A stretch of DNA of 64,000 bases from Ectocarpus siliculosus. Taxonomy: Eukaryota; Sar; Phaeophyceae; Ectocarpales; Ectocarpaceae. Below the pieces are notes generated by a model. That model worked only from the letters and a program-made list of their open reading frames with translations. It was not told the DNA's origin and searched no databases. Within the stretch, counting starts at the first letter, position 1, and every line of letters starts with the position of its first letter. Where the stretch lies: contig FN649749.1 of assembly GCA_000310025.1 (NCBI GenBank), positions 2,724,297-2,788,296 of the forward strand, given 5' to 3'. This document shows positions 13,118 through 63,676 of this stretch, in pieces. The translations under genes were made by a program, and so were the position numbers.

Positions 13118-14905
13118 TCTTTTGGGTGTGTCTAACCCCCCCCCCGTCTGTATCTCCGCCCACAAGGCGCCAATCGAGCCAGGACATGCACGGCTGTGTT
13201 GCTGTGATGTAGGGCTATCGCGAGACCCACCGAACAGCCGAAACGGTGAAGGTTTGGTGCAGCCATGGCTGATGGGCAAAATATATCTGTTCCCCCAACC
13301 TGCCCCCCGGGGAAGGGATTAGTGTCTAAATCCCCCCCCGTCTGTATCTCCGCCCACAAGGCACCAATCAAGCCAGGACATGCGCGGCTGTGTTGCTGTG
13401 ATGTAGAGCTATGGCGAGACTTACCGAACAGCGGAAACGGTGCAGGTTTGGTGCAGCCATGGCCCATTGGGCAAAATATGTCTGTTGCCCCAATCTGCCC
13501 CCCGGGGGGGGATTAACCACTAAATCCCCCCCCGTCTGTATCCCCGCCCACAAGGCACCAATCGAACCACGAACACCGGTAGAAGTGTTTGAAACATGCG
13601 CGTAGAGCGCACAGCAGCGGGCAGCAGGTGAGGCGACCAGCACATCAAGTATTCCTGCCCACAACTTTACACGCACCCAAAGGGAACCGAACACTGCCTT
13701 CTACTCTTCTCGTGGCAGACTTCTTTCAGCTTTACAAGAAAGAATCCCACTGCTGTACATGTATGTAGCGCTTCAAGGCACCAATGAACTGTAGACGTGT
13801 GTGGAACGTGCACGTACTGCACACAGCAGCGGGCAGCAGGTGAGGCGACCAGTACATCAAGTATTCCTGCCCAGAACTTTTCACGCACCCAAAGGGAACC
13901 GAACACTGCCTTCGTCTCTTCTTGAGGCAGACTTCCTTCAGCTACACGGAATCCGACTGCTGTATGTAGCCCTTCAAGGCTTCCGTCGACACACAAACAC
14001 CGGTAGAAGCGTGTGGAATGTGCACGTACTGCACACAGCAGCGGGCAGCAGGTGAGGCGACCAGCACATCAAGTATTCCTACCCACAGCTGTACAGGAAC
14101 CGAACGCGGCCTTCTCACTGGTGGGGCAAAAGCCTTCCTTGCTTTCCCCTCCCCAGCGGTATGTTGTCACACAAGACTTCAGTCGACACAGGACATGATC
14201 AACTGTGTTGCTTCGCTGTAGGGCTACCGTATGACCCATCGTTGAGCCCCACCGGTTCCGTTCAGGTGGTACCACGGCCGGTGGCGTAAACTACGGTTGT
14301 GCCCCTGCGGGTGGGTGTGGGGTGGGGGAGGAAATGTGTCTAATACCCCACCATGGACCTCGCACCTCTGTACAAGGTTCCGATGGCCACACAAGAACCG
14401 CAGTAGAAGTGTAAAGATGATGCACGCACAGCACACAGCACACAGCTGCACTACACCACTGCAGCACAGCAACCAGGAGACACGGCACAAGGAGGGGGGG
14501 GGGACCTAGTACAGAATTTTGCGTGCATCATCTTTTACACTTCTACTGTGCGGTTCTTGTGTGGCCATCGGAGCCTAGTACAGAGGTGCGAGGTCTCGCG
14601 ATAGCTCTACATTACAGCAACACAGCCGTGCATGTCCTGGCTCGATTGGTGCCTTGTGGGCGGAGATACAGATGGAGGGGGATTTAGACACTAATCCCCC
14701 CCCGGGGGGCAGGTTGGGGCAACAGATATATTTTGCCCATCAGCCATGGCTGCACCAAACCTTCACCGTTTCGGCTGTTCGGTGGGTCTCGCGATAGCCC
14801 TACATCACAGCAACACAGCCGTGCATGTCCTGGCTCGATTGGCGCCTTGTGGGCGGAGATACAGACGGGGGGGGATTTAGACACACCCTTTTCTTTTTCA
14901 AAGCG
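13118..14905. mobile_element. Fold-back element with nested inverted and tandem repeats
   Basis: Outer arms: 13118-13330 is the near-perfect inverted complement of about 14683-14900 (GGGTGTGTCTAA at one end, TTAGACACACCC at the other). Inner arms: 14354-14425 is inverted at 14520-14596 around a loop of about 95 bases. The left arm contains a unit of about 190 bp repeated head to tail (about 13128, 13320, and a partial copy at 13513). A second tandem unit of about 200-220 bp follows (starts near 13578, 13797 and 13998; shared words GCAGCGGGCAGCAGGTGAGG, AAGTATTCCT). No transposase is seen inside. It is absent from the paralogous unit A, so it inserted after the duplication. Non-autonomous fold-back DNA transposon is the best guess. 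Confidence 0.7.
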
Positions 14906-16280
14906 TCTTTATCGCGGGGAACCGTCTTTAATATTCCGGGGACGATAACTCACCACCCCCGGGGTCAATGGAGGTGTACCATACGTCGAAAGACGCCCCG
15001 TTGCAGCAGGGATACATAGCACGAAACGAGAACACCGTACACTGGCGGTCACATCGTGGCAGGGGGTGAAAGTCGAATGTACTATATAACCGAGTTTGAA
15101 GTTGCTGCACCACTAGCAGTCACACACCACCCCCAGCAATACACTGCTGAGAGGTGGGTAGTATTGCATGGCAACGTTTTGCTAAGACAGCGTGGTCTCT
15201 ATATATTGTCATTGTTATGTTGTCGTTGTCCCCAGGTTGAAAATCTTGCCGACAGCTTTGACACACCGAACAAGTCCGCTGTTCCAACTCAAGCACGGAA
15301 CACGTGCTATGCCACACGCCACCTACCCGACAGGGACAAAACGACGAACATAAACCAGAAATTATCGGATAAGACAGACAGCACCAGAAACAAAAACAAG
15401 GCACACTTGAAAGAAGAAACAGATTCCATCGCTTTACGCGCCCCCCCCAAAAAAACTACCCCCTCCACATGTCCCCAAGAGTGGCCTGCACCTCACCCCC
15501 CCCCTTCGCTCTTCGCTTGACTTGAGTTTCATGGGTAAACGAATGCACAGTCGAAAGAAGGTATAGTGTTTCGCCGTACTCCCCGTCCTTCCCCTTCGCG
15601 TTCAAGAAGGAGCGGCAGTCCTCGAGACGAGAGCGGACGTCGGCCTCTGTAAACGACGTTGTCATGCACGACCCTGGCCTACCGTCGCCGTCTTCCTCTA
15701 CTCTTCACTGGACACATCGTCATCGAGGTCTATGTTGTCAAGGTCCTCCTCTACACCCCGCAGCTCCATTTCTATCTCTTCCTCCAACACCTCTGGGTCA
15801 TCCTCTACACGAAGCCACGTCTTCACTGCCTCACGGACTTGAACCTCATTGTCTTCAGCTGTTCTCTTCTGGCAATCGGTACACTCTCTCTGCTGCCCGT
15901 AGCCCTCCGCTCCGATGCCCCGACCACAAAACGCATGCATGGATCGCCCGCAAGGGCACAGATGAACCCCTGACCCAAGTTGAGACTTCATCGTGCACGT
16001 TGGTTCACCATATACTGTCAAGCCGGCGGTGGACGAGCCGCCAGCAGACGAGAAGAATCTCTCCATACCCACACGAAGTAGTAACGCCAGCAGCAGCAGA
16101 CAGCTTTCTGTGCTGTCTACACGGGCGTGCTGGTGTGCTGCACCATGAATTTTGGGAGGGGGGCCGAAAATAACACCTCCCCCCTATGTTGTATGTCTGC
16201 GGGGCACCCTGGTTCAAGATTTTGTTTCCGTCTTTATCGCGGGGAGTTGCCTTAAGACGAGCGTCTTTAAAGCGGGGACG
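14906..16280. repeat. Segment bounded by two similar GC-rich motifs in direct orientation
   Basis: CGTCTTTATCGCGGGGA is followed by a second CGTCTTTAA..GGGGACGA motif at 14906-14947, and the same pair recurs in the same orientation at 16222-16276. Such motifs resemble terminal repeats of small DNA transposons, but here they are direct, so either two element ends or a composite insertion is present. The zinc-finger ORF lies between them. Confidence 0.4.
15698..16072 (-). CDS. Hypothetical zinc-finger protein with acidic tail
   Basis: An open frame of 124 codons. It contains a Cys/His cluster (CTMKSQLGS, then HLCPCGRSMHAFCG, then ECTDCQ) that could bind one or two zinc ions, and an acidic C-terminus (LEEEIEMELRG, DNIDLDDDVSSEE). 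It lies between two transposon-like motifs and just beyond the fold-back element, and has no counterpart in unit A, so it is probably mobile-element derived. A separate small frame at 15456-15665 on the same strand (69 codons) follows. The 5' end is uncertain; no family is named. Confidence 0.35.
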   Translation of the reverse strand: MGMERFFSSAGGSSTAGLTVYGEPTCTMKSQLGSGVHLCPCGRSMHAFCGRGIGAEGYGQQRECTDCQKRTAEDNEVQVREAVKTWLRVEDDPEVLEEEIEMELRGVEEDLDNIDLDDDVSSEE

Positions 16281-18718: not shown

Positions 18719-21700
18719 GATATGCTGGCAAACAACACGAGACTCGTCGGGGAGGGCCGTGTACGAAAAGTGTACTTGGCAGAGTACGGGGAACAAACGG
18801 TAGCTGTGAAGGTACTCCAGCACCAATCGGATACTCGCTTGCAGCAGATCGAGGTGGCAACCATGGATGCGGTGAGTTGGTTAAAAATGTGGTCCTGTGC
18901 CTCGCCCGAGACGACACTTGGGCTCGCATTTTGGCTTCACCTTTGCATCACTGGTCCTTGGCGGTTGGCTGTCTGGATGTTATTGCATTGGTGTCCCTGT
19001 CGTGAAGGTATACACATTTCCTGTTTGCGTTCTTATTTCTTCAGAAACCGTGTTGCCTCGTCCTTTGTTTTTTTCAAGTCCGCACCGGCCAAAACAGCTA
19101 AATGCGTGAGTGTGGTTGGCAAGTCGGTGACGACGCGAGAAAGGGCACCCAAGGTATAGCGGGGACGCAAGAGGTGCTCCCTAAAGGAGGGCATACGTTT
19201 GTGGTGTGCCTTCACGTATCTTGTTTCGTATCGTAAGTTACCCCACGTCTCCGGGTGTGACCGGGGGTCCAGCTGGCCTACAGTCACCCATTCCTCAGCA
19301 CATACCCGTCTTTTTGACATCGATCATTTTTTTTGTTCGAACTATGTGTAGTGTAAATGTTATCATTGTCGAAAAAGAGACATCGGTCCTCCAAACAACA
19401 GGACCGCCAGTAACAGCTAGAAAAGCAGCCCGAGGAACAGTGAAGTCGTAGCGCGACCCCAGCTAGTAGCGAGAATCAATAAACCAGGAACGTGCGCACC
19501 ATAGGTACACCGTATCCCTGCACGACCCCCTTAGCCTTCTGCGGTATTGCAGTCTGGATTCTTCCGAGGCGGGATGTGCAGTGAGTCATCTGATTCATGC
19601 TGGGGCATGGTTGGAGGTCGCGCTCATCACTAACGTATATTCCCAGCTGCATTTCAATATCGAACGGCACGAGTTAAGAGCGCGTGGGTGTTTTATCTTG
19701 CTCGCCGCATCTGCGCTACGGCAGAAGCCCTGTTGATACTGATGACATGTGATAAAAGGCCACCGCTCTAAACGTTGGTAGGAACACGTGAGATATTGAC
19801 TTGTTTGTGAGGCGAGCACACCACGTGAGAGCGTAAATCGCCATCGTGGGAGTTGTTGATTCCTCACCAAGGCGGATGGTAGCAGTGACATGAAACTTCC
19901 GCCCCTGCGCTCGGTGTATTTGGCGGATGCCACCAAACGACGTCAACCCACCCGATTCCTGCTCGTCTGTCTTGACGCCGATCGCGGGAGCAGGTCAGGG
20001 GCAATCCACACATCGTTCAAACACTGGGCATTTGCAACACCACGGTGGTAACCGAGGCCTACATGCTGGATATTCAATCCGCTGTGCGCAAGCGCATGAC
20101 GGCTCTACCGATCGGCGAGGCCGTCACGATGTCCTTGGACGCCGTGAGAGGCCTGCAAGCCCTCCACGAGGCTGTCGGAGGCCCAATCGTACACTTCGAT
20201 ATCAAACCAGCCCAGCTTCTGGTGACCGGCAACGGGCGAGTGAAGCTAAACGATTTTAACGTTGCCTGGTTCATGAGCCGACGGCCAGACGGGAAGCCGT
20301 GTCCGTTCAATATGCTGGCCCAAATACGGAATAGCGGCCCCTGGAGAGCTCCCGAGTACCTCACCCGAAAGGTCAGCGACAGGAGACCGCGCGAGTCGAG
20401 GTGTTTGTTTTATTTGATTGGTTCACTGTTGCGGTCGCCGAGGATGCTGGCTGCAAGACAAAGTCATAGTAGGCGGCAGGCGACAGCGTTGCTGACGGCC
20501 TTACCGGAGGATAGAAGTATATCTGGCGGGGCCACTGTTTTGTTTTGCGAATGTTACATGCCTTGTTTGAGTATGACCTTGTAGGACCGAATGGCGGCAG
20601 ATTCATTACGCCGATGGCGTTCATTGATGGAATACGCTGGGGACAACCAGGAAGACGCTGAGGACAACCAGGAGGTACGTCCCCCGCCCCCTCACCCAAG
20701 CACGTGCGTCAGCAACGTCCCCGAATGCACCTGCACCATGGCAATGGCGGTATCACAGTAAAACCTGACGGGCTGCAACTTCCCTCCACAGCGCTCAACA
20801 CCAACAACGGAACACCTCCGTCCAACCGTGAAAGAGCGGTGGAAATTCATATGGATGGTATGAGCCGCGGCTGTGCGGAACACATGACGTCGCGATTCTG
20901 TCAAGTCGGTTGCCGGTTTGAGACTTAACCTTCTGACTGGAAGTCTCAAGCTTTCTGAGCATGGAACTCACGGAGGTGTTGGTTAGCTTTAGGGGCGTCG
21001 GTTCCGCCTTCTGAGGCAATCACAAGTTCGTCTCCACGACACGACACCACGGAATGATAACAATATATGCAGCTCCTGCATGACCCCAACTGGTGCGTGT
21101 TCCAAACAGTTTATATGCTCATGTGTATCATTACAACACCCCCCCCCCCAACAGGACGTGCGCCTTGTTCCAACGGCGTTTTTCGCATCCCCATTGTTTT
21201 TGCCCCCTTTCATCGTCGTTTTGGTATCCTTTTTAGCCCATGACGGAGAAAATAGATATCTACAGGATGGGTCTAGTTTTGCGAAAATTTGTAGCTGGGG
21301 AAGGCATGCGCATACCAGGGGCGCGGGAAGCTAAGGGTGCTATCCCCGTTTTCCGCACAACGTGGCACAGGAGCTACAGTGAGGTGCGTCCGTTTAGTAT
21401 GATTTCGTCGTCCTCGCTAACCGCCTGACCAATGAACATTTCTCACTTTTAATGCGGGACAATCTAACGTGAACATAGGTCAACGGGCGTTACCTTGTCT
21501 GTATGTGTGAATCATATGTTGAAGCTGCTACAGTAGTGCGGGCAGTCGCCGCCTCCGCAAAAGATGGGTATGATCACGTCATTTAGTATGTGTGCCTCTC
21601 TATCGTTTGCATTATTCGCTCCCATGGAAGTACACGCAAGTCGCCCACCCGAAAAACTTGGTAAGAGTTCAGAACGTCCTTTCATCAGTTTGAAACCTGA

Positions 21701-31473: not shown

Positions 31474-34400
31474 ATGACAAAACATTCCAGCCGCCTGCTG
31501 GGCGCCCTCGGTGCAGCGGTCGTCCTGTCCAGTGTCGCCGCCTACTCCTGGAGCAGTTCGGGCTGCTGGGAGGGTGGCTACGGAGACGGGTACTGCGAGC
31601 AGCAAAACAACAACGCAGAATGCGGTATGTGTACTGCACCTCCTGGTGGTGTGACGTGCTCATCTTTAGAAATATTGTTTAAGAGTGACCTCCTGCGCAC
31701 GTTCCTGCGAGTGGTAGTCATAGCTGCAAACCCTGCTGTGCGATTAGCAATCGCCCTTAGGTTAGATTAGTACGTGCTGAAGGCGCAACGACCCGAGCAT
31801 GCAGCTACAGTCTCAACCTACAATACCCTCGTTGCATCGGGTTCGAGCTGACTCGTCACTATCTTCCTGAGGTCCGTTCCCTTGTTTCCTGTTGCCATTC
31901 GATGTCGTCCCCCCATTGACCCCGGCCTTCGCAGGCTACGACGGCGGCGACTGCTGCGAGTGTACTTGCCAGGTACGATCGGTTTCACCCGTTGTACTCT
32001 TTCGAGATGTTGACTCTGCTCTCTGTGTTTTGTGTGCCCCATCCGCCCTCGACACGGTCTGATTTTCCAATCAAGCGCACCGGTTCGTACTGACATACTG
32101 CACGGCGGATGCAAGCCCGATGCGTTTTCACGTTTCAAATACTCATGCAAGAGGATTCCATGTAGCATGGCCATAGTTCTCTCTCTCTCTACCCTTCCCT
32201 CCGGCTCGAAGTGCCCTTGCTGAGAAATGAATTGCCCGTTCAAACTATGCTGCCCCTACCCATTCCAGACTCAGAGCGATGACGACTATTACTCTTGGGG
32301 GTGCGACAAAGATTATATGGCCTGCATCGACCCAGACGCCTCTTGCGTCGACGATGACGACGTTACTGCTGAAATGGTGGAGAACTGTGACTGGGTTGGC
32401 GGTATCGGAGACGGTTACTGCCACGATGGGAACAACAAAGCAGAGTGCGGTACGTTGGCCCGGGAAACGAGTACACCCCACGGGATGAAGTATCCAACGA
32501 AAAAAAGAGGTTTCGCTCGATTTCGTGGACATGACCACACCCCCGAAACACTTTTCAACGGTTTCGTTAGGGTTAGAATCAACAAGATCACGCCATCAGA
32601 GTAAATCAGCCTTGTGACAACTTGACCCTTTCAATTTGTGACCTCTCGATACATGCTGCTGTTCTTGGTCACCATTTCACCTTCCTTCATGTCACTGTTC
32701 GGATGCACCCGCCAGGTGGCCATGGCGTTGATGGTGTAGAAGCTGATCTCTCCTACGACCGCATTTATTCCGATGTGTCCTCTGTCGCCGTTCTCTTTCT
32801 TTTTCTCCCTCCCTCACCCCCCCCTACGTATCTATCTATCTGTTCGCAATCCATCAGTCAATCTTCTGCATCTCCTTTTGTTATCCCATCCAATCTCAAT
32901 ATCCGACGAAACTGCCACGGGTGCGATGACGGCTGTATGCATAGGACATCCCCAAACCAAAACGAGAACTAGACCCATTAGTTTGCCCATCGTTGCCTCC
33001 AAAGCAACCTGAGGGTTGCATGAAATTCGAATATAGAGCAGGCGCTATTTAGGCTGTAGCGGGAAAGGAAGAACGTCAGCGATTACGCGTGAGTCGGGGG
33101 TGAGGGAGAGGGATGGGTTCGAATTGAGGTTGGAGGTAGCATGGCGAATAACCCGTTGTACTCGGCAATCCCTCTCGCCGTACCTGCCCTGTCCATGCCG
33201 CCGTTGTCCTTCCTTTCACGTTGGCCGCCCTTTCATGAAGCGGTCGGTGGGCAGTGGTGGCTCAACACCAGACGTGAAGATGTTAAAAAAATCATGCCCT
33301 TCCTCTTGCAAAGGTGGCTATAATTTGGGTAGAATGCAAGCCTGCTCGACCTCATCCCAACGGCAAGGTCAGGTGCGACCATGTTGTTGACCGCCTGCCC
33401 TCTCCCCCATTCTGTTGTTGTTTGTCCGTGTCTCCCAGGCTACGACGGCGGTGACTGCTGCGAGTGCACATGCGTGGTGAGAACTATGAAAATTGTGAAT
33501 CGTGAAATGATTCTCCTAAAGAAGGTTGCTTCTCCATCCTCAGTAGAATTCTCTCCCCTCGCCCTTCCTCCACAACCCTATTTTGCCACCAATCTGAATC
33601 TGACCTCGGACTATATTCTTTCTCTTCGTGTCCACGAGTGTACACACCCTAAGCACCAAAAGCGCTCGAACTACCCGTAAGCATTACAAGGGGCAGTCAA
33701 TGTAGTTACTCTCGATGTGGGTTTCCCCTCCCATCTCTCAGGCCGAACAATCCCCTCCTCTCTCACCATTTTTCCGAGACATCCCTTCTCTTTTTTTGGT
33801 ACGCATGCACACGGAAGGTGTCCTAGGCGATGTCCCTGCTTTTCCTCTCTTCACCTCTCACTCCCACGCCTCTCTCTCATTTCGAGATCCCCGCGGTTGT
33901 GATAATTAAATGGTCCTCTCTTCGCCGCGCGCGCGCTTCCAAAACCAGAACCCGTGGGGCGACGACGACGACTGGGTCTGCTCCAAAGACGGCTCTGGGT
34001 TTGCCTGCATCGACCCGGACGCACCCTGCGTTGAAGACGACGATATCACCGTCGAAATCGCGCAGAACTGCGACACTTCGGACTTGGGGGACGGCTGGTG
34101 TGACCAGGACAACAACAACGAGATATGCGGTAAGTGTTTCATATGGCCATGGGATGTAAATCTATTGCACACGTGAACGTATGCAAGCACATCGACCTAC
34201 GCACACCCGTGTCAGACAACCGCTTGACAGATTTTAACGCAGCGGTGGCCTGCTTTGTGTCCCTCTCTTTTCTCTCTCTCTCTTTCTCTTTCTCCCGCTC
34301 TCTCGCTCTTGCTCTCGCACCTAAACGCCCCTCTTGCTGCTCCAGCGCCCCCTTGCGCACAGAGACCCCTTCATTTCCCCCACCTCCTTTACCTTTGAAG

Positions 34401-37400
34401 GGCGGCATCACTCACCCCACGCGCGTTGTGTATTCACTGCATGTTGGAAATCTCGTGCGGATATTTAGTTTCTGGTTGGTCTCATACCATTACCCGGACG
34501 TGTGAGGTTTGCTGTACTACGATGGGTCGCGGGTCTTGAACCAGAGGAAGCCGTAAACCTATGCATACGAGTCATTTCCGATGTTCTTCGACGTGGGCGT
34601 ATACATCAAACAGTTCCCTCATCCCTGCTTGATCGTTGGCGTGCCTTCTTGCCTCAGGCTACGACGGCGGCGACTGCTGCGAGTGCACTTGTGTGGTAAG
34701 TTAATCGAAAAGCACGTGGGAGGTCTGAAGAATGTGTGGTTTGGACCCTTTGTGGCCTTGGTAGATATGCGCATTTCTCAGCTCAGCATCCGCCGTCTCA
34801 ATTCTGAAGAACCCTTCAGTCTAGAGACGTTTGCAGTTCTGCCTTCGCACGTGTGTGGTGATGCCCAAAGAAGGCACAGGTTTTCACTTTCAGTAGCAGT
34901 AGGGTCTGCAGAAAGAAAACAGATACTCGAGTAGCCGCTGAACAAGACGAGGCTTGAAACTTTGTCGTAGCGCTTGTACGCTCTGCACTTGCTGGCGTTG
35001 GTTGTCCGAGAAAATCCGTCTGTAACTCCTCCCCCCCCTAATGTCCTCGCGAATGCTCCGTGACAACAATGCTCCATCCTCTCGAGGACGCGTGGTCAAC
35101 GGTATTCATTTGCAATTAAGGCATGCAAAACATGAGTACGCCCCCCCCCCCTCCCCGCCGGCCCTCGCGAATTCTTTGAAAACACAAGTTCCTGCTGCTA
35201 GTGCTAGGACGAGTCCTGCCTATGTTAGCCTTGACCCCTCCCTTCCAGTCCGCCTTCTTTAACCCTTAACAAGTCTTTTGTCTGTTTCTGCTCACGCATG
35301 TGCCAGAGCCCATGGGACGACGACAACTGGGCTTGCAGCAATTACAACGCCTGTATCGACCCTGAGGCCCCCTGTGTTGACGACGACGATATCACCGCCG
35401 TGATGGTGGAGGAGTGCGGGTACGTCAAAGCTGCAACTACCGCGATTGAGTCTATGCACAATTTCTTCTTGGTGCCGTCGAGGAGCGTCTCCAATGTAGT
35501 GCTGCGTTTAGACGTCCACCGAGCAGCACAACCAAGGGCGTGATGCTTCCACTAGTTTTGCTGCTTTGCCACATGTTGTCGCTGACACCCCACCTTCGAA
35601 AATCTGTACGAACACGCCTGGTTTTTGGGGAATGACTTTTCCCTGCCGATGTGTTGTTCGGCGTGGCATGGGTGTACGTGCCGTGACAGCGATATGTCTC
35701 CGATATGATTGCGAAGTTTCCCACATGTGTGTGTGTGTGTGGTTTTTTAGCATCGACCGCGCTGACTGGCTGACCAATGAAAATACGTCAGTCTCAGTGC
35801 GGTTGAAAAGTGTGTGTGCGTTTTTTTGTTCGGCCTTGCTGAGCCCTCAAACCCATGTTCGCCATCATGATGAGATGTTCAGATGTAGCCCGCGCGGAAT
35901 GAGTTTCGGATTTCCCGGTTCAGGCGCGTGTCCAGCCGTTTATTTGCCGGCTCGCTGCTACGCTCCAGTACTGGAACAAACCTGAAGTTCATTTTTGCTG
36001 CCTTGACGTATAACGCGCTTGACGCCACTGACGGCAGGCGGGTGAGAGATGTGGGCGATGGATGGTGTGACGAGGAGAACAACAACGAACTGTGCGGTGA
36101 GATTGCGTTGAGCTGTGGAGCACTTGTGCGGAAGCCGACGTGGCTTCCCGTCCACAGGTCGGCATTTTAGATATAATTCGGAGGTCAGGGACTCAATCGG
36201 TGTCATTCGACCAAACCTCTTGGCATCACCATCCTCCTGTAAGTTTTTCATGCCCATTTTTTCGCCCCTGCACCCTGATTCGGCAGGCTACGATGGCGGT
36301 GACTGCTGCGAGTGCACATGCGAGGTGAGCAACCTTTCCACTACGCATGCCCCCAACTTATAGCACCTTTTCGTGTCCTTGGTAGATAACGCATATATCT
36401 CTTTGCCCCCACCTTTTCATCGGCTGCTCCGATTACCTCATCTCTGGATCTGCACGAGCATTTGTTTTCTTCGCCGCGATATTTCTGGTAAGCCCTTGGA
36501 ATCCGCAATAGGTCTACCAAAGGAGTTCGATCGGCGTTCTTTCGGTACGTATCTTTCTTAATTCTCTGTCCCAATGGTCAGATATGGTATTTTCTCGCAC
36601 CAACCCTTATCTCCCATTCGTTGCCTTGGAAACACACCCGTCAGGCCCCACCTGCGGACGATGACTGGGACGACGACTGGGATGACGACTGGTACGGCGC
36701 CTGCGGCGACGGCTTCGCCTGCATCGACCCGAGCGCCCCTTGCGTCAACGATGACGACATCACTGTCGATGTCGACGAGAGCTGCGACGCTGTCGGTATG
36801 GGCGACGGCTACTGTGACATGGACAACAACAACGCAGCCTGCGGTGCGTGCTCATGGCTCTCGTGTACGGTAGATTGTCTTGCCTGTATTGCCAGCAGGC
36901 CATGAAAGGTGCAAGCCCTGTATCCTTTTTGCCACCCAGGCGGAATCAAATGGCGGAAAGAAAATGATGGAAAGGCGCAAGCCATGTCAAGGAAACGTGG
37001 AAGCCCGAATTTGACTGTGACACGCGGGCGGTAACGTTAGTGAAACACTGCTGTCGAATGACAGAGAGGGCGTGGTGTGGTATGGTGTGGTGTAATGTGA
37101 TGTTTACTGAATAATTCTCCACCGTTCGTGTTGCGTATGCCCCCCCCGCCCCGAACTATCCTCAGCTTACGATGGCGGCGACTGCTGCGAGTGCACCTGC
37201 GAGGTATGGGAATCATTTATTTTCCTTGCCCATTCTAGGCGAAACGCTTTGAAAGGCATGAGACTAGCTGTAGAGTTAAACAGCGCTTCCCGCGGGCCAT
37301 CACCACGCGTTCTCGTTTCAAGCTCTCTCTGAATCAAGTTTTCTGTTGGGTTTTCTTCCTCGCTTTGGTGCGAGTAGTTCTTCCTGTCGGCATTGCGGCT

Positions 37401-40400
37401 CTTCGCCGACCTTAGATTAAGAAACACTGCCAAGGCTGCGGGTCCCCGGTCTCGCTCTTCCTTACCCTGTGACTGCTCCGTCGTGACTGTGTACGTGGTT
37501 TTCGGCCTGGACCAGGGTATATGCGACCTAGAGAATTATCCAACCTCACCCAGTAGTTGAAGTAGGACGATCGCATCAAATGCTGTGGTAGTCGGACACC
37601 CAGGAAGCAAGTTACATGACTGTAGGTGACGTAGGGTATCACTGGACAGCCCCAAGGCCGATTTTTCAAAGCGAAGACAAAGCGAACTGATGAATGAAGC
37701 GGTATGTTTTCGGGTAGCTCTAAACGATATGGTTCTAACATTGCCGTGTTCGACCCCGCCACTGTTGCTACTGCTGTGGAGTAATCCGAGCTTTGAAATT
37801 CGGGCCAGGGGGTGCGAGGTTTGACACCTTATGTCACCAACGGTAGCGCCTCACAGCTGTCTCCGGGAGCATGCAAAGCAATGTAGCCGTTTGAAAACCA
37901 GTCAATGCAAGGAATGGAGCACGGAGTAAACGAGCCTAACGTTCCGTTGCTTGGATGCATGGCACGTACCCTTCGTGCTGCCCGCCAAACACCTCGCGGC
38001 GTTTCGCCCAGTGATAGTATGCCTTCCATGTCGACAAAACCCCGTCCCATGTTCCATCCCGGTGCTATGGTTTGTGGTGTCAGTAGTACGGCCAGGCGTG
38101 ATGGTGATGTCGCTGTCCCTGCCGCTTTGTTACTCGATCTCTTGCACGTGTTCGCGCGTTTCTCCGGCTAACGTATTGCTACGCATGTGCATGTCAGGAC
38201 ACGCCAAACAACAAGTGCGGTAGGTGGAGCGGCTTCGCCTGCATCGACCCTGAAGCACCCTGCGTCGATGACGATTCATTCACCGTGGATATGATCGACA
38301 ACTGCGACTACCCAGGGGGAATCGGGGATGGCTGGTGTGATGAAGACAACAACAACGAGCTATGCGGTAAGCCTCGTGGTTCTTTTTAGTATCGGAAGGC
38401 GGTGAGTTGCTGCTTCTTGAAAACGTGCACCACCGTGCTGGAGCAGGCGCAGTCGCAAGCAGAATGGACCGCGACAGTTAACCTTGTCAAGCACCATTGA
38501 TCGCCCAGCTGGCTGAATCCCTTCTTGTTTGATGCGTCCGGATGGGTTTTCGGTGAATTAAGTAGTGTAGCTCGTTCGACACTTGACAGAAATCGCAAGC
38601 GTCGCTGTCTCAAGCGAATGCCTATGCACGGAAAATACAGGGTGGCGTTGGCGCTCTGACCCATGTGTTCTTCCCGCGTTGGTTGTCTTAAGACCAAGCT
38701 ATGTATGTAGCGCTACTGGCCAAGAAACAACCTCTGTCGTTCTGTCGTTTATGTTTCTCTGCTTCTCTCTTTGATCTGTGCATGTTGGCAACAAATGCGC
38801 GGAAGCGATTCTATGGGCGTCTATTCGTTTGAAGTTGATGATGCCGATTCCATTACTTCCGCTCGCCCATTTCGTTGTCGTACTGGCATGCGAGATTTGC
38901 CGCATGCAAACAAACTATTTCCGCAGGGATCAGGCTCAACCAGCCAACAGCGACCCCTCCCCCTTCTCCTCCTTGCCTTGTGATTCCCCCTCGCTGTCGA
39001 ACTATCCTTCTGTTCCTCAGCGTACGATGGCGGCGACTGCTGCGAATGCACTTGCGAGGTACGCGGGACCAATTCAGTTGTTTTGCCTGCCAAGCGAACC
39101 CGCTTGAAGTGCGTGGATCCGGAAGACATGTTGGGTTTGCCCCCTCAGTAGATACGTTTGCCCCGAAGCTCTTCATGCGTTGTTCTACGTCCCTCTTTTC
39201 TACTCTGAAGAATGTGTTCCATGTTGACAGCATGAAACATTTGGAACCCACGAGTTCTAGAAATCGGCCATTCTTTTGGACGGGAATACCGCCTTTGTTT
39301 TGCCCTTTCCGTCGAACTGTGCATTTTTCTGACACGTTTTACCCACTTTCGGACAGTGTGTGCCTCTGCCACTTGTCCCTGCAAATTTCGCGTGTGCAAG
39401 GTGCATTTCACGGTGCGTCCGCGTGCAAGGGTTCGCAATGTAGCTTGGTGTTTTCAGCATCCCCCTCTCTCTCAAGGTTAGGGCTAGGGTAAGGGCTAGT
39501 CCTCTCGATGACACGTGGGTACTGGTCTTACCGCTAAGGCATGCGAAACATGAGAGCCCCCCCCCCCCCCCTTCCTCTCTCAAGACTGAGCTGCTGCCGC
39601 AATTGTTTCATTTTCCTGTTGTGCGCTCACCGTTCAGGGCAGCGAGGACGACGACTGGCACTGCCGCAACTTCGCCTGCGTCGACCCGAACGCTCCCTGT
39701 GTGGACGATGACAGCGTCACCATAGACATGATCGAAAACTGCAGCTGGTCGACAGGCATCGGCGACGGATACTGCAGCGAAAATCTCAACACGCCGGAAT
39801 GCGGTAGGTCTTTGCCCAAGAAGCTCGCTTTCCCGTACCGTACTCGTGACCTATAGTGACATTCTTGGAGGCAAGCTGAAATAGGGATTGGGTGCCTTGA
39901 AGATGGTGTGAGTGTCGATTACAGACATCCGACGACCTGTTGCCAATAGATGCCAGCGCTCAAATGAGCTCCAAAGTCGATGAAGGTCGCAAGCTCCTTT
40001 GATTGGTTATCTTGGTAGCTGTTGCGGCAAAATCATGGTGCGCGTGTTGGTGTTCGTCCCATTTCCTCTGGCGCGGCCAATCTATGAACGTCTTGGTTCA
40101 TATTTGTTTGACTTATTGGCGGGGGGTCACATGGGCGGAAGGTCGTTGAGGAGGTTGTTTGATTACCCTGGGGTACGCGTACTTTCCGCGAATGTCGCCT
40201 GAGCAAGCAACTTCGTCGTTGACGCCCTTCGACGACCTTGTGTCGCCGTCAGCAGTGGCAGTAGTGGCAGTGGTGGGGAATGAAGCCTAATGCGTCAGAA
40301 CCGCTGTTTAGTATGTCGTACCTCTTCGCCACATGATCCTACTCCTGTGCGTCTCCCTTGGCGACTATGAGCTCGCTCCCTCATTGTCTCACGACTGCAC

Positions 40401-43400
40401 ACGTGGCGTAGGCTGCAACCAACACAAGTGGACCGCGATGTCTCTCTCTCTTACCTGTCCTGCCACGTTCGTGTTTTCCAATTTCCGCAGCCTACGACGG
40501 GGGCGACTGCTGTTCTTGCACTTGTGAGGTAGGGACCACTCATACGAGGACTGGCTAGGTCCTCCCCCCTTTGTGATCGTTGTTCTCGGATGCTAAAATC
40601 ATTTATTGTGTCTCTTCGGTAGGTGGTTTTCTTTTCCCTGTGCCCGTGCTTTTTCTTCGAAGACTGCGACGGCAATTCGGGAGAACATTCTTTCATCGGA
40701 AGCTTTGGTATACGAAAAACAGCTCATCGCGGGCTCGGTATTGTTTTCGGAAGGTCTTCCGTCGAAGTTTCCGGTCGAAGTCTGACGACGCCGAACATGT
40801 GACACGAGTTCGCTACCGCGTGGGCCATAACCTTACAGCACACGACTGCAATGCTAACTGCATGTTTTTGCGCTGTATTTGCTGACCTGACATGTGAGGG
40901 GCGTTGCCGTAACAGAAGGTGCCCGCCTAACGCGAATCACGTTGGGCAAGCGCTGCTTTTCGTGTGCAACCGTTTGGACGTCCCCGACTAGCCAAGAAGT
41001 GTTTTTGCCCATTGCACCACCACAACGGTCTCGACGAAACGACTTCTTGTCTTAGCCTTTTTCCCTGCCGTCGGGGGCTGGCCGCGGTATCAGGCCTTCC
41101 CGTGGAGCCTGGGTATATACTGACCCTCATTATTTTGAATTAAGTTTGGCACTATCACGGCTTGCTTGGACAAAAAGGCCATTTCTGGGTTGGTGCGTCT
41201 CCCCACCCGCTGCCCCTTTCGTTTCTCTTCAAACCGTCTGAACAAGGATATCCCTCCATTTGCCGCTCGCCCTCCTGCCAGAGTCCTTACGACGACGACT
41301 GGGGTTGCATGTGGTTCGCTTGCATCGACCCAGAGGCAGCCTGTGTTGACGACGATGACATCACCGTCGACATGTTCGAGAACTGCGAATACCCGGTGGA
41401 CATCGGAAACGGCTGGTGCGACGAAGCAAACAACATCGAGGCGTGCGGTAGGTTCCTTTCCCACCACGTGCAGCCCATTTCCTTGTTGATCGTCGTGGAG
41501 GCCTTAAGTGTGTTCGTCGGAGAGGCCTTGGGATTGATTGCCTGATTGCCTTTGAGCCAAACACTCAGCGGAAACACACATCCACGTGGTGCAAAACAGC
41601 GTACGCCTTGCTCTCGACAGAGAATCTCCACAAATCCCCCCCATATGCCGGGGAAACTTTGTTTGCCGGTTGCTCGTCCATTTCGGCATCCAACCCCTGA
41701 ACACCCAGATTCCAGGGCGTGGGGGTGATATCAAGTAAGTAAAAAAGCCGTGGGGTAAAGAGATCTCGCCGAAAGGTTGGCATTCGACACCAGCACCAGC
41801 ACCATAGATGCACGCTCACGGTAGGTGACACAAGGTGTCACCCTCGCTGGACGGACTTGACGACGAATGGTGTACAAATTGAACGGTTCGGTTTTTCGTC
41901 AAGCCGTTCACGAGACGTCTCTAACGCCGCCATTTTCCGACGTCACCCTTTGGGCCCCATTACTCCACTCTTTCAGCTGTGGGGTAACCGAGCCGGGACA
42001 GAACGTATGAACTCCTTCTCCCGATGGCTGGAAGGGCCAACTGCTGTACATACAGTCCTTGAAAATGGTCTCAGGGCTCGTATATTCATCAGGCGTGGCA
42101 CTACGATTGACGCACTGTTGTGCCTCCATTTAATGCTGTGTCGTCGTCGTCGTCGTCTTCGCCCTTCCCACCCCGATTCGGCAGGCTACGATGGAGGCGA
42201 CTGCTGCGAGTGCACGTGCGAGGTAAAGTACGCGAAGCGTATGGATTCTCACCACATACTTGGAGTAACGGGCCTTCAAAGCAATGTACTTTTAGCTTGT
42301 CATCTTCTCCTACTTCCATCGGCCTGTGAACCTACCCGCCGCCGATGGCTTCCTATATGGGACACTGCCTTCTCCACGAGCGGTCATTTCCGTTCGTATC
42401 TGGTTTGCTGCGAATGTACATGCCCATCAGCAAACCATTGGGAATCCGCATGGATTCCTCTTGGTAGAAGTACTAATAACCTCTTCTCTTGCCTACGGTC
42501 TCTTGTCTCGTAGTCTTGGGTAAACGCCTGCTATCTGTTGTTGGTGCGAGGTATTTTAGCGCGGTGGTTTCGGTTGGCGTTGGGTCCGATCCGAATAGAA
42601 AACACCCGCGCCCTGGAATCACCTGTTCGACATGTTGGCCAACATCCTCCGTACTTCTTGTCCCCAACACTCCATGCTGCGTCCTCCCTGATCTTTGTAC
42701 TTGTTTTCTGCTCTCTTGTACTCGCCCGCCGCCTTTCAGTATGAATCTCCTTATGATTGGGATGATGATTGGGACTACCACTGCATGGAGTTTGCTTGCA
42801 TCGACCCCAGCGCGCCCTGTGTAGACGATGACGACATTACCGTCGACATGGTCGAGAACTGTGGCTACGTCTCCGGGATAGGCAACGGCTGGTGCGATAG
42901 AAACAACAACAAGGAGGAATGCGGTGAGACCATGCTTCCTGAAACGGCACAAGATACCGTTCCCGCACAACTGCGTGATAAAACATGCACCTGTCAGGGA
43001 CGGAGGTCGGTATTTGTTTGGCTCAGCAGACATCCAGCACGTCCGACTGGTATGCCCCGCCGGTTGGAGCCTATTTGGCTTGACAATGCGAAAAAATTGT
43101 GGTTCAATGAACAATCTGTGCTGGGGATTGACGGCAGAGCGCACTGCACCGCACTGTTCCCAGGAACTATTTCCGCCATATTCGCTGAGCCCGAAACTAT
43201 AGTTTGAACCCAACTAAGCTCGATGTATCCTTAGCTGTATTGGATTGTAAGTATATTGCAGCTTGTGTTTCGTTCCTTACCTCGACGACGTGAGCACGGT
43301 ACGATAACACCTGGCGTCGTTGTAGACGCGTCACAAACCCATTGTACGCGCGGCGTCCGTCGGCAAGAGCCCGATCATTCGGGCTGACTGAGGAGGATCG

Positions 43401-45447
43401 CCCGCAATGTTTCTGGGTCGTCTCCCTCCTTGGCTCCGTCTACTTCGATTTCGGGCCCTATACGCTGCTCCCGACGTACCAATATTGTCAGGGTTGGGGT
43501 TTGCCCAGCGCCCTTTCTCTTGTCTCTCGCGTCGTTGTCAAGCAGCGTACGGTGGTGACAAGTATTTCGCAATGCTGCTTCTCCCAGTTTGTAATTCCTG
43601 TAGAAGGCGCTCTTGTTGTGACAACAACGGTAGGTGGACAGCTCCTCTCCTGCGCTTGCCATCGATTGCGCTCGAATATATAGTCAAGTGACGATATGCA
43701 CACCACATGGACCCAGCGACCAAAACACGAGCGTGTTGACTTTGTACTGGTATTTTTTCGGTTTTCTTCTGTCCAGCAATAACCGTTTTTCTCTTGCGCT
43801 CATGTGTTGGAATCTGGTTCAACTTTGGATGCAGTCTTAATCGACGGCTCCGAGGCTTGGTACAATAACTTGCTGCGATTCTGGCGGCGTTCGTGTTTCT
43901 GTTGCCTTTGTTCGTTGTTGGTCATTATAACCCTATCGTTGGTCGTCCTGACGTGGAGCAAGAACAACTGTGATGTTCGAGCGCTTATAGCGTCCTCGTT
44001 TCCCTCTGTGGCTATCTCTTAGGCTACGACGGCGGCGACTGCTGCTCTTGCACATGCGAGAGCCCGTATGATGACGACTACTCCTGCAGCAGCGAGTACG
44101 GCTCCTTCGACTGCAAAGACCCGAACGCCTCCTGCTTCGGCGAAGAACCTACTGGGAGCGATGACTTCAGCACCGACGACCAGCCAATGTCGTACGAATT
44201 CGTCCCCTGGGAAGAGACAGAGGCCCTGCCGACGGTCGACGGTGCTGTTGAGGTGGGCACCAAGACCGAAGTCGGCGTATCATCTACCGCCCACGACGTG
44301 CGGCCCGGCATGAGCAGCGGCGACGCTGGGTGCGGAGAGGTCGGCGGCCTTGGCTGCACGGCGACCAACACCCGTGACGGAATTTTCTCCGAGATCGAGT
44401 CGAGGTGGTCGTGCGCCACGAAGCTCGTGGATGACGAAGGGCCGTGCCAGATCGAGTTCACCTTTGCCGAACCCCAGACCATTATGGACATTCAGGTTGC
44501 CTTCTGGAAGGGCAACGAGCGCACCCGTACCCTAGAGGTGAGGGCGACACCCAGCAGGCTGAAGGTTACCGAAACAAGCCCTCTCTTTTAGTTACTGGTA
44601 GCCCCCAACAACACTTCTGCGACTGTGAGCCACCATGAGGACTGCATTTCGTAACGTGTAAATGAAATGCTTGGAGGTGTTGACCGCTCCTAGCGATTGA
44701 GTTGAATGGCGATGGCACGTTCGCCGCGGGCTGGGAATCCACCTCGAAGCGGGCTATCGTGCCGATACGTGTGACACCCTCCCATCCCAAGCGGCTTCCG
44801 TGGGCGCTTTCCACGGGCGGTGCTCGAAGCAAGAGTTTCATCTTTCATACCTCGCAAACCTTTCCCCACACAGGTCCACATCAACGGCGAGATGACCCAC
44901 ACTCACGAGTCCTACGCCGATGCCACCTTCAACACGCTCGGTGTGACGGCTACTGACGTCAGTACTGTGATGCTCGAGTCCGTCGCTCTCCTCTCAGACG
45001 AATGGATCAGTCTCATCGAGGTGAGCGTTGTGTCCACGATTGCTTGTTGCGAGGGCCTGGGAAATTTGCCAACCGTTGGTGTCGAGGGGATTATGTTTGG
45101 TGTGCCTCTGGTGTCATCAGGCATACGTGGACAGAGCAAGGTAGTTGTATACCCACCAGGTCAATATTGGACACAAACTCTATCGAGCAGGGCAAACACT
45201 TGGGCAGCAATGGAAAATGTTGGACTCCAAAGGCTTCTCTTGTTTGTCCAGTAGCATCCATTTCGCAACCAGTTCGCCTTTCGGCGCGAGCGAGTCTATC
45301 GCGCAGTGCTCACAAATACGTTTCTTCGAACGTTTGTTCGGACAAATCGCTCGTCCCTTCTCCCTTTCGTCTGTCCCTGTCTCTCTGTGTGGTATTGTAT
45401 TCCGCTGCGCACCTTCACAACAGGTGCTCATCTTCGTGACACCTTGA
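31474..45447 (+). CDS. Secreted protein with eight LNR-like modules and a discoidin (F5/8C)-like C-terminus, 21 exons
   Basis: Exons: 31474-31624, 31935-31972, 32269-32449, 33439-33476, 33949-34129, 34658-34695, 35307-35419, 36038-36096, 36287-36324, 36645-36843, 37166-37203, 38198-38366, 39021-39058, 39638-39803, 40491-40528, 41282-41447, 42185-42222, 42740-42923, 44023-44537, 44874-45020, 45424-45447. All borders are GT-AG; the coding total is 2559 nt, 852 residues plus TGA. Residues 1-25 form a signal peptide. Residues 26-63 are half a module; residues 64-637 are eight modules of 68-79 residues, each with CIDPxAPCVDDDD, GDGWCD, NNN and YDGGDCCxCTC, resembling Notch/LNR repeats with acidic, probably calcium-binding runs. 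Residues ~700-850 form a discoidin-like domain (SRWSCATK, QIEFTFAEP, DIQVAFWKG, ESYADATF, EWISLIEV), a fold often binding carbohydrate. No kinase or membrane segment is seen. Wall or matrix protein is an inference. Confidence 0.9.
35041..35147 (-). repeat. Repeat C, copy 2 (in intron 6 of the LNR gene)
   Basis: CTCTCGAGGACG, GTGGTCAACGG, AGGCATGCAAAACATGAGTACG and a poly-C run: the inverted counterpart of 24290-24405. Confidence 0.55.
37622..37853. mobile_element. Diverged MITE of the TA-flanked family (in intron 11 of the LNR gene)
   Basis: The right end (GGAGTAATCCGAGCTTTGAA, CCAGGGGGTG, ending ACGGTA) matches the right end of 23934-24154. The left end (GTAGGTGACGTAGGGTATCA, CCGATTTTTCAAAGC) is its degraded complement. 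Clearly older than the two copies near 24-26 kb. Confidence 0.55.
39497..39570 (-). repeat. Repeat C, copy 3 (in intron 13 of the LNR gene)
   Basis: CTCTCGATGACACGTGG, AAGGCATGCGAAACATGAGA and a poly-C run: the short, diverged inverted copy of Repeat C. Confidence 0.5.
42139..42158. repeat. CGT microsatellite in intron 16 of the LNR gene
   Basis: About six CGT triplets just before the acceptor of the exon at 42185. Confidence 0.9.
43546..43629 (+). other. Possible cassette exon inside intron 18 of the LNR gene
   Basis: A pyrimidine-rich tract and CAG precede an 84-base open stretch ending at G|GTAGGT. It begins and ends in phase 1, exactly like the junction between exons 18 and 19, so inclusion would add 28 residues without a frame change. 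It reads AYGGDK at its start (compare AYDGGDCC of the family) and CNSC, CCDNN at its end (compare CD..NNN). It may be a decayed or alternatively used module piece. Confidence 0.35.
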
Positions 45448-61488: not shown

Positions 61489-63676
61489 CTCGATGAGACT
61501 GATCCATTCGTTCTCGAGCAGATCGACCGACTCGAGCATCACCGAGCTTATACCGGTGGCCGAGACACCGAGAGGGTTGAAGGTGGATCCGGCGTAGGAC
61601 TCGTGGGTGCGGTACAGGGTGCCATCGAAGTAGACCTGTTGGAAAATGTGTGTGAAGATGTTTGATAGCATGCGCTTGGACGCCGCTTGTAGGAACATTG
61701 GTGGAAGACATAAAGAGCTACGGGATCATAGCGTCGTTTGCCTACAAATACGAGGGTCCTCCTGGTTCCCAAAATCGGTGTAGTGCTGGGCGAGAAGCAC
61801 ACCTCGCACGGCAGAGCATAATTGAGGGTGACATTATCTACACGACTGAAGAGGTTGACCACTCCTTGGGTCGACACCAAGGGCAACTAATCACACCTCA
61901 ACTGATGCGTCAGGCGTGGATGTACTGAATACCGCGTCGGAGCACCTGTGAAGTGTGATGTGCCACGCGGTCACTATCGTTGTCCGAACACCGCGTGGGA
62001 ATATCCGCACGGGTTCGGCGACACAGGTCCCGCTTTCACAGGCTGAGCACGTATCCCAACCAGTGAAATCTCATCCAAGAACGATGTATCCTGACTTGGC
62101 CAGTTCTGTTTTTTCAGCCAATCTGACATGAACCTGACCTAACCTGAGACCGTTCAAATTTTGGCCTGACCTCCTTATCAATCACCTTATTCATGGCCCC
62201 ATGGAAAGCCCTGAAAAATACATCTGACGCTGGACCGGCAAAGCCGTTGCAGCCTTATGTAGTGTGTGACACAAACAATACTCCACCGGGACAGAAGTAG
62301 TATCGGGTCCTGTCGTACAGTGTCGCTGCCAGAGGCCCTCGATCTCAGTATTCGGGGGGACTTCGTCCGGAAAATGTGCTATTGCTTCAGAGCTACTCGT
62401 TCGAATTGATACAGGCAGCAGTGATATCCCACGCTTGGTGGTAGTTACTCCCATCTCACCTCTAGCGTACGGACGCGCTCATCGCCCTTCCAGAAAGCCA
62501 CCTGGATGTCTTCTATGTCCTGGGGCTCTCCGAACACGTACTCGATCTGGCAAGGCCCTCCGCCGGGCACGATCTTCGAGGCACACGACCACCTGGACTC
62601 GGCCTCGTTGCTGATGCCGTCACGGGTGTTCGCCGGCGTACAGCCATTACCACCGGCCTCTCCGCACCCGACATCGCCGCTGCTCGAGCCGGGGCGTGTG
62701 TCGTGGGCGGTGGCAGATACACTTACGTCGGTCTTGGTGCCGACTTCAACGGCATCGGTACCGATGTTCAGTAGGTCGTCTTCGTCCAAGAACTCAAAGG
62801 ACATCGATCCATCGTCATCCTCATTTTCCGGGAGGGTAGGTTCCTCGCCGAAGCACGGTGCGGTCGGGTCTTGGCAGTCAAAGCCGGAGGTGCATGAGTA
62901 GGAATCATCCTCAAGCCCGGTTGGCTGACACACGCGAAGAGCAGCAAACGCGGAGGCGTGAATCGATCATCAGCCAGAGGGGGCAGTGCGCGATAGACGA
63001 AAAGAGAGAAGGAGGAAACCGCGAGCCGAGAAAAGTCCTGCAAGTCCCGATGAACGTTGAAATTTCGTTAACTGACGTGCGTACTCGGCAAAATACTTAT
63101 TGAGGGGAAGGGGAGAGAATCGGGTGTATGGGGATTAGTATAGGAGGGGGCAACAGGTACCCGTAGAAAAGCGTTCGTTAATCAAGGTTGCACGTGAGCG
63201 GGCTCTGAAAAGAGCAGCATTTGTAAAACTTTGTGGGGTGTAGACTACATGAAGCAGAACGTATTGCATCGAGTCTGAAGTGGCGGCGTGAGTCAGAATT
63301 TCGAAATCTCCAGCCGCCTTACGTTGGGCACATGAATACCACCGGGCACTGCGTGCAATCAAATCAACCAAACTACACACGAAAGTACGGTCTGAAGCCT
63401 TCCAGAAAGCACCTTGTCTCGAGAGTAAGCTCTCTCTCCCGAACATCCTGCCATTATCCCGTGCGACTCCCAGCTGAGACATTTGCGAAACCGCGTGCCT
63501 AAATGCCCTCCACTCTACCTACAACCGCAGACTATTGTTGAAAAGAGGACGACTCCAACGCGGGCAGTTGAGGAGGGGAGATACTTCCAAATTCTAGGCC
63601 TTCAATGCTCCGACCACATTTTCAAGACTTGCACTTGCCTCGCACGTGCACTCGCAGCAATCGCCGCCGTCGAATG
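61489..63676 (-). CDS. Paralogous LNR/discoidin-like secreted protein, 3' part (runs off the window)
   Basis: Three exons read from right to left: 63676-63639 (38 bp, phase 1 to 0, encoding AFDGGDCCECTCE), 62924-62460 (155 codons) and 61635-61489 (49 codons). The first donor is GC (GAG|GCAAGT), the others GT. The middle exon encodes DSYSCTSGFDCQDPTAPCF, an acidic linker, and most of the discoidin-like domain (SRWSCASK, QIEYVFGEP, DIQVAFWKG); the last encodes HESYAGSTF and NEWISLIE. Exon borders, phases and even the 38- and 147-bp exon sizes equal those of 31474-45447. Upstream modules lie beyond 64000; the terminal exon was not identified with confidence. The two genes converge tail to tail about 16 kb apart. 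Confidence 0.85.

Follow-up and report, generated by a model that had tools for sequence, protein, structure and literature searches.

The window analysed here is a stretch of 64,000 nucleotides from the brown alga Ectocarpus siliculosus (contig FN649749.1, here C24, C24:2724297-2788296), and its central feature is a plus-strand gene at 31474-45447 whose product carries a tandem array of LNR domains. The gene model, read from the genomic sequence, comprises 21 exons and 20 introns, all of them GT-AG (20/20), and the joined exons of 2,559 nt encode 852 residues with one terminal stop, as an initial annotation of this DNA had stated. That annotation also described eight modules of two exons each, and both the exon lengths and the phases were borne out: first exons of 166-199 bp enter in phase 0 and leave in phase 1, and eight exons of exactly 38 bp, the mini-exons, enter in phase 1 and leave in phase 0. 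The count was not, as Pfam detects nine PF00066 stretches and hence nine LNR units (Table 1). Unit 1 pairs a signal-peptide-like exon of 151 bp with a mini-exon, its LNR lying directly after the hydrophobic start, units 2-8 are full two-exon cassettes, and in unit 9 the first exon has 184 bp and the 38-bp partner forms part of the 515-bp exon at 44023-44537. The one split first exon that had been noted, 113 + 59 bp in unit 4, is common to all six paralogues in which this module was mapped (C236, C39a, C39c, C138, C39e and C39d).

The mini-exons are not a chance pattern: eight stretches of 38 bp between AG and GT encode (Y/F)DGGDCC, whereas 100 dinucleotide shuffles of 31474-45447 contained none at all. 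The segment is present in all eight, as annotated, but its first residue is Y in 8/8; within the window, F is found only in a neighbouring gene at 63639-63676.

Table 1. Exons of the LNR gene and of the neighbouring gene, in window coordinates.
Feature	Position	Strand	Length (bp)	Remarks
M1a	31474..31624	+	151	signal-peptide-like start (judged by hydropathy only) and first half of LNR 1
M1b, mini-exon	31935..31972	+	38	GYDGGDCCECTCQ
M2a	32269..32449	+	181	
M2b, mini-exon	33439..33476	+	38	
M3a	33949..34129	+	181	
M3b, mini-exon	34658..34695	+	38	
M4a part 1	35307..35419	+	113	
M4a part 2	36038..36096	+	59	
M4b, mini-exon	36287..36324	+	38	
M5a	36645..36843	+	199	
M5b, mini-exon	37166..37203	+	38	
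M6a	38198..38366	+	169	
M6b, mini-exon	39021..39058	+	38	left side of the C236 six-module deletion junction
M7a	39638..39803	+	166	not in the C236 copy
M7b, mini-exon	40491..40528	+	38	not in the C236 copy
M8a	41282..41447	+	166	not in the C236 copy
M8b, mini-exon	42185..42222	+	38	not in the C236 and C39e copies
M9a	42740..42923	+	184	not in the C236 and C39e copies
E19	44023..44537	+	515	DGGDCC of LNR 9, last linker, acidic spacer and the larger part of the C-terminal domain; right side of the C236 junction
E20	44874..45020	+		C-terminal domain
E21	45424..45447	+		final 7 codons and stop
Neighbour, last mini-exon	63639..63676	-	38	AFDGGDCCECTCE; GC donor
Neighbour, C-terminal exon	62460..62924	-		last linker and C-terminal domain, unfused to the mini-exon
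Neighbour, equivalent of E20	61489..61635	-	147	

Over the whole protein PF00066 scores 58.4 bits against a cut-off of 21.2 (E 9.6e-16), and no other Pfam domain was found. As evidenced by a profile of 12 LNR halves (A5) run against the PDB, which retrieved the LNRs of PAPP-A at 3.3e-14 and those of Notch1 at 1e-8, the modules are LNRs, as had been proposed; the DGGDC end motif and the cysteine spacing agree with solved structures of the domain. The invariant columns of the same profile retain four of the six Notch cysteines, and the six-cysteine, three-disulphide Notch type is not found. In PAPP-A, LNRs with two disulphides or only one still bind Ca2+ and contact partners according to PMC9579167, so that four cysteines speak against a Notch-type LNR and not against an LNR as such. 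Of two modules scanned singly, M8 passes the PF00066 cut-off (23.5 bits, E 7.9e-05). Over the whole genome PF00066 matches only two places at E<=0.001, which we attribute to the mini-exon breaking up the domain.

An acidic linker with the pattern C-x-D-P-x-A-x-C comes after each LNR. Since an LNR stands first and a linker last in the algal protein, and since three bacterial proteins (L046, L048 and L050, described below) show an LNR and then a C-x-D-P stretch, the domain is probably an LNR with the linker that follows it, and the linker-plus-LNR frame of the initial annotation would then be shifted. The C-terminal ~150 residues matched no described family in Pfam, NCBIfam or the PDB. A resemblance to F5/8 type C (discoidin) domains had been suggested but finds no support in sequence profiles: three versions of the domain gave no Pfam match at E<=10 except DUF5918 at 0.18. 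Note that an AlphaFold model of exon E19 (two sequences) reached a predicted local distance difference test score of 40 and is unusable for a fold comparison with F5/8C. No viral relative of the C-terminal domain or of the linker exon was confirmed, and for the C-terminal domain none from bacteria or archaea either; the best E value in a search of PHROGs was 0.26. The complete protein contains 141 Asp and 68 Glu residues (net charge about -188) and has a hydrophobic N-terminus; an equally hydrophobic stretch of 19 residues recurs only at the C-terminus (residues 832-851), and from the start to residue 832 the hydropathy scan stayed at or below 1.46.

The gene belongs to a family that we traced through the genome (189 Mb, 492 contigs). 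A 21-base DGGDCC pattern occurs at 107 places, with none for the reversed control, and with one module as query 131 matches at E<=0.01 were obtained among the 150 of 174 candidates that were scored. The C-terminal domain gave 18 matches, by our count 17 loci including the window gene, on C24 (2), C39 (7 from 8 rows), C138, C236, C310, C9 (3), C19 and C33. At least seven family loci, in both orientations and some of them degraded, form a cluster at C39:147000-437000. In two of them, C39a and C39b, the joined exons yield open frames of 847 residues each, with exon-length differences from the window gene in multiples of 3; the joined exons of C236 are open as well, over 632 residues, with length differences of the same kind. 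Open joined frames are claimed only for these three copies and the window gene, as incomplete exon mapping precludes such a claim for C138, C39c, C39d and C39e. On C24 itself an LNR-like segment (L028, 4242-6077, minus strand) stands at the front of a Chlam_PMP-repeat protein (PF02415, E 1.5e-8); its PF00066 score of 10.2 is below the cut-off of 21.2. By eye, an open frame on C351 (L045, 557-1600, plus strand) resembles this architecture.

How old is the array? The initial annotation had explained it by repeated addition of an exon pair, and as a recent origin of the window array this can be set aside, since its introns are unlike one another: those between modules share at most ~30 bases beside the exons (self-BLAST, E<=1e-4). 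Copies of the whole gene, by contrast, can be aligned at length, and the summed BLAST matches, exons included, amount to 10.1 kb at 78% between the window gene and C39a and to 18.9 kb at 92% between C39a and C39b. When 53 module cores (from ten copies; modules 2, 3 and 5-9; 44 columns) are placed in a tree, the 13 position labels need 13 changes, one above the minimum of 12, as compared to a mean of 38.4 for shuffled labels, none of 200 shuffles being as low; 9 of the 48 inner branches are strongly supported and 19 are open. Modules thus group by position and not by gene, which supports, at the level of sequence, an order of events in which an old nine-module array came first and the whole gene was later amplified into the C39 cluster and onto other contigs. 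C39h contributes six rows with long branches; four of these stand within their own position group and two apart. Module 8 of C138 groups with the module-9 set, possibly by conversion. At C138:619491-623374, repeats (95.5% and 98.8%) lie in the intron between the first exon and the mini-exon of module 8.

Module number differs between copies within this one genome, and in this respect the proposal of growth by phase-symmetric exon units holds. Nine modules are present in the window gene, C39a and C39b, and six in C236. The latter copy is 88-95% identical to the window gene and its upstream flank, and modules 7-9 are missing. Its junction lies inside the 38-bp DGGDCC block, with the intron and mini-exon of module 6 on the left and exon E19 on the right. 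The same junction is found in C310, which is 99.7% identical to C236 over 3.0 kb and may be the same locus. An import of the C236 modules from the sampled paralogues was considered and rejected: among the modules compared (M2, M3, M5 and M6) the first three are closest to modules of the window gene itself, and M6 is tied between the window gene and C39b. A second event is seen in C39e, counted at the 3' end only as its 5' end is unmapped; one unit fewer is present there, mini-exon 8 and first exon 9 (M8b-M9a) being gone, with breakpoints in phase-1 introns, and the two flanking introns meet within ~75 unaligned bases (C39c 366502 and 367585). The third event is a gain in the neighbouring gene, a minus-strand paralogue that starts and for the most part lies outside the window (as far as about C24:2798000), ends near 61489 and has modules of three exons. 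It contains a direct repeat of ~3.0 kb at 89.4% (2794770-2791794 and 2791470-2788534) that spans two modules. By eye, modules 3 and 4 were copied to 5 and 6, for a total of six LNR units; the mini-exon of module 3 reads DWGDCC and that of module 5 DRGDCC.

All three events start and end at or beside the phase-1 side of a mini-exon, and in a paralogue on C27 the DGGDCC segment, linker and LNR half stand together in one open exon, twice in full and a third time in part. The moving unit is therefore best described, as read from these genomic copies, as a mini-exon with the first exon that follows it, phase 1 to 1, and not as the phase 0-to-0 pair originally proposed.

We further studied the selection acting on the exons. 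Between the window gene and C39a the ratio of non-synonymous to synonymous change (Ka/Ks) is 0.27 in first exons, 0.07 in mini-exons and 0.31 in the C-terminal part, values expected of coding and constrained sequence, and between C39a and C39b it is 0.48, 0 and 0.12, respectively. Purifying selection is thus evident in two of the three pairs compared, and a different signal was obtained only for the window gene and C236. Here Ka is 0.115 and Ks 0.111 in first exons, with an intron divergence K of 0.050, and Ka is 0.007 in mini-exons and 0.030 in the C-terminal part; amino-acid change in the C236 module exons amounts to 2.3 times the intron divergence. The raw differences are 104/1035 in first exons versus 258/5537 in introns (Fisher p 1.4e-10), the latter leaving out the deletion-spanning interval (44/672), with which the introns count 302/6209. 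For C39a and C39b the direction is the opposite, with 58/1548 in first exons and 686/10579 in introns. After polarisation by C39a and C39b, C236 accounts for 50 of the 72 amino-acid differences in the first exons of M1-M6 and the window gene for 3, with 19 ambiguous; for intron bases the figures are 135, 77 and 45, respectively. No cysteine changes occur in the alignment inspected. These figures are consistent with loops in C236 that diversify on a kept scaffold, in a single pair in which synonymous change is raised too. In three genes, the modules of one gene differ from each other at synonymous third positions in 0.23-0.28 of cases for mini-exons, as compared to 0.44-0.48 for linker cores; exchange among modules would give such low variation, as would codon preference or splicing signals.

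LNRs of this sequence type also occur in marine bacteria. Among 54 pattern matches, ten metagenome-assembled bacterial loci (L046-L055) were confirmed by the LNR profile, including five from Neomarinimicrobiota and three from Myxococcales. L046, L048 and L050 share the C-x-D-P stretch after the LNR with the window gene, the pattern having flagged one printed segment and the others being recognised by eye, but the bacterial proteins have no introns and other partner regions, and no relative of the algal C-terminal domain was found in a separate scan. L050 contains ten DGGDC segments in 4 kb.

Elsewhere in the window, two similar protein-kinase fragments on the plus strand (8022-8495 and 19976-20584; Pkinase E 3.4e-12 and 2.4e-11) are preceded by alike open reading frames with signal-peptide-like starts at 2797 and 12378, and the whole looks like a duplicated kinase gene. 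Tandem arrays with periods of 194 and 212 bp occupy 13128-14095. An open reading frame at 15698-16183 on the minus strand, with a SCAND3-like zinc finger (PF23663, 26.9 bits against a cut-off of 27, E 4.6e-06), is perhaps transposon-derived. RNA families and tRNAs were not found in the window. The EsV-1-7 family is expanded in brown algae, and in the present genome 150 of 150 scored candidates (880 at first look) match its domain, as compared to 0/14 control genomes, which agrees with a brown-algal host.

Among the matches listed in the open-licence literature, no title is concerned with a brown-algal LNR exon array. In gametes of Ectocarpus, 16 genes with Notch domains have been reported (PMC3879662), and one of these is down-regulated in the etoile mutant according to work cited there. 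The closest known parallels are the LRR-ROCO genes and an exon array in Tetrahymena, both built on leucine-rich repeats (LRR). The former, described by Teng et al. 2024 (PMC11378527) and also treated by Zambounis et al. 2012, as cited by others, are likewise brown-algal, with one repeat per phase-symmetric exon, arrays that reportedly evolve by exon shuffling and a candidate recognition role (PMC11378527). As in these genes, the repeat exons here are phase-symmetric and their number differs between paralogues. The same report describes ROC-COR proteins whose LRR exons measure 72 bp, are of phase 2 and undergo alternative splicing, whereas the window gene has two-exon phase-1 LNR units, is probably secreted and belongs to paralogues with a conserved array order. 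The 90-bp-exon LRR genes of Tetrahymena show uniform repeat exons for which unequal crossing over was proposed, inparalogues that differ in repeat number and mostly purifying Ka/Ks (PMC6564038). PAPP-A (pappalysin, PDB 7y5q) is the best PDB match of the module profile, with YDGGDCC in the best-matching stretch, but is described in PMC9579167 as a metalloproteinase with three LNRs and no tandem array.

Taken together, we consider it likely that the window gene represents a brown-algal family of probably secreted proteins in which tandem modules of a four-cysteine LNR and a C-x-D-P linker precede a family-specific C-terminal domain, and in which an old array undergoes module turnover by phase-1 units and may serve an extracellular Ca2+-binding function. 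Structure and mechanism are well supported; the function we infer. As the sequences support, module number changes by exchange or loss of the phase 1-to-1 genomic unit, the DGGDCC mini-exon and the exon after it. The breakpoints fall between introns or within the almost identical mini-exon, so that whole modules are gained or lost in frame. The protein may be exported, bind Ca2+ through its LNRs and act at the cell surface or in the extracellular matrix as a multivalent binder, with surface loops that could change on a fixed disulphide scaffold.

Several observations weigh against this interpretation. The exons were joined from genomic sequence alone, and a function is suggested only by the hydrophobic start, the composition and the domain identity. 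Module M2, scanned alone, gave no Pfam match at E<=10. The acceptor AG of M6 in C236 is missing at the mapped place, an in-frame AG following 6 bp further on, and this copy may therefore be impaired. In C39a, M3a is followed by GC and not GT; the exons of C39d, in which those at the 5' end are unmapped, differ in length by amounts that disrupt the frame; in C39h a mini-exon closes with a stop (241804), and C39g has stops and a degraded exon set. The direction of change in C39e and C236 is taken from parsimony, the low synonymous variation of the mini-exons may be due to codon or splicing constraint rather than exchange, and C236, C310 and C419, being small contigs, could represent diverged haplotypes instead of additional loci.

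Could the six-module copy be an assembly collapse between near-identical 38-bp blocks? Its junction does lie in a repeated block of a 43-kb contig, but C236 differs from the window gene by ~5-6% along the gene, the junction recurs on C310, and an intron stretch of 701 bases, taken from the part that was deleted, has matches only in C24 itself and, at 65-70%, in C39; a collapse is therefore very unlikely. A Notch-type receptor under regulated proteolysis is more improbable still. It would account for the LNR domains, and gamma-secretase components are reported in Ectocarpus (PMC3879662), but LNRs are the only domains that Pfam finds in the 852 residues, these nine alternate with C-x-D-P linkers, and no hydropathy window exceeds 1.46 from the start to residue 832. 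The architecture of Notch receptors, with EGF repeats, a heterodimerisation domain, a transmembrane segment and ankyrin repeats, was thus not found in the domain and hydropathy scans.

Two further explanations concern function. In one the protein is a static, structural Ca-binding component of wall or matrix, and C236 a copy released from constraint. The abundance of Asp and Glu with the resulting negative charge, the hydrophobic start matched only at the C-terminus, the purifying selection in two of three pairs and the lost acceptor of M6 all agree with this, but release from constraint alone should neither raise amino-acid change to more than twice the intron divergence nor spare the cysteines; we regard it as quite possible, if short of probable. 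In the other, the family is a diversifying recognition repertoire for defence or for self or gamete recognition, in which repeat number and loops vary with changing partners, as has been suggested for the brown-algal LRR-ROCO genes. The concentration of amino-acid differences on C236 with unchanged cysteines, the excess of first-exon over intron differences in that pair, the tandem gene cluster on C39 and the 16 Notch-domain genes of gametes (PMC3879662) point this way. On the other hand, C39a and C39b evolve under purifying selection, the raised Ks of C236 brings Ka/Ks to about 1 rather than clearly beyond, intron changes too fall more often on C236, and the signal comes from one pair only, so that a recognition repertoire remains rather doubtful. 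Bolder, and in our estimate unlikely, is the idea that the mini-exon, being almost identical in every module, doubles as a recombination site for in-frame module turnover in a secreted protein on a disulphide scaffold, after which loops diversify, to form a second, extracellular, exon-shuffled recognition repertoire beside LRR-ROCO.

The growth of proteins by exon units is usually inferred from old arrays. The family of probably secreted LNR proteins described here combines, in one genome, an old nine-unit array, an in-frame loss with a junction legible in coding sequence, a further loss with breakpoints in introns, and a gain of two modules at 89% identity, and the brown-algal Notch-domain genes that were reported in gametes would gain a concrete architecture that is testable across strains.

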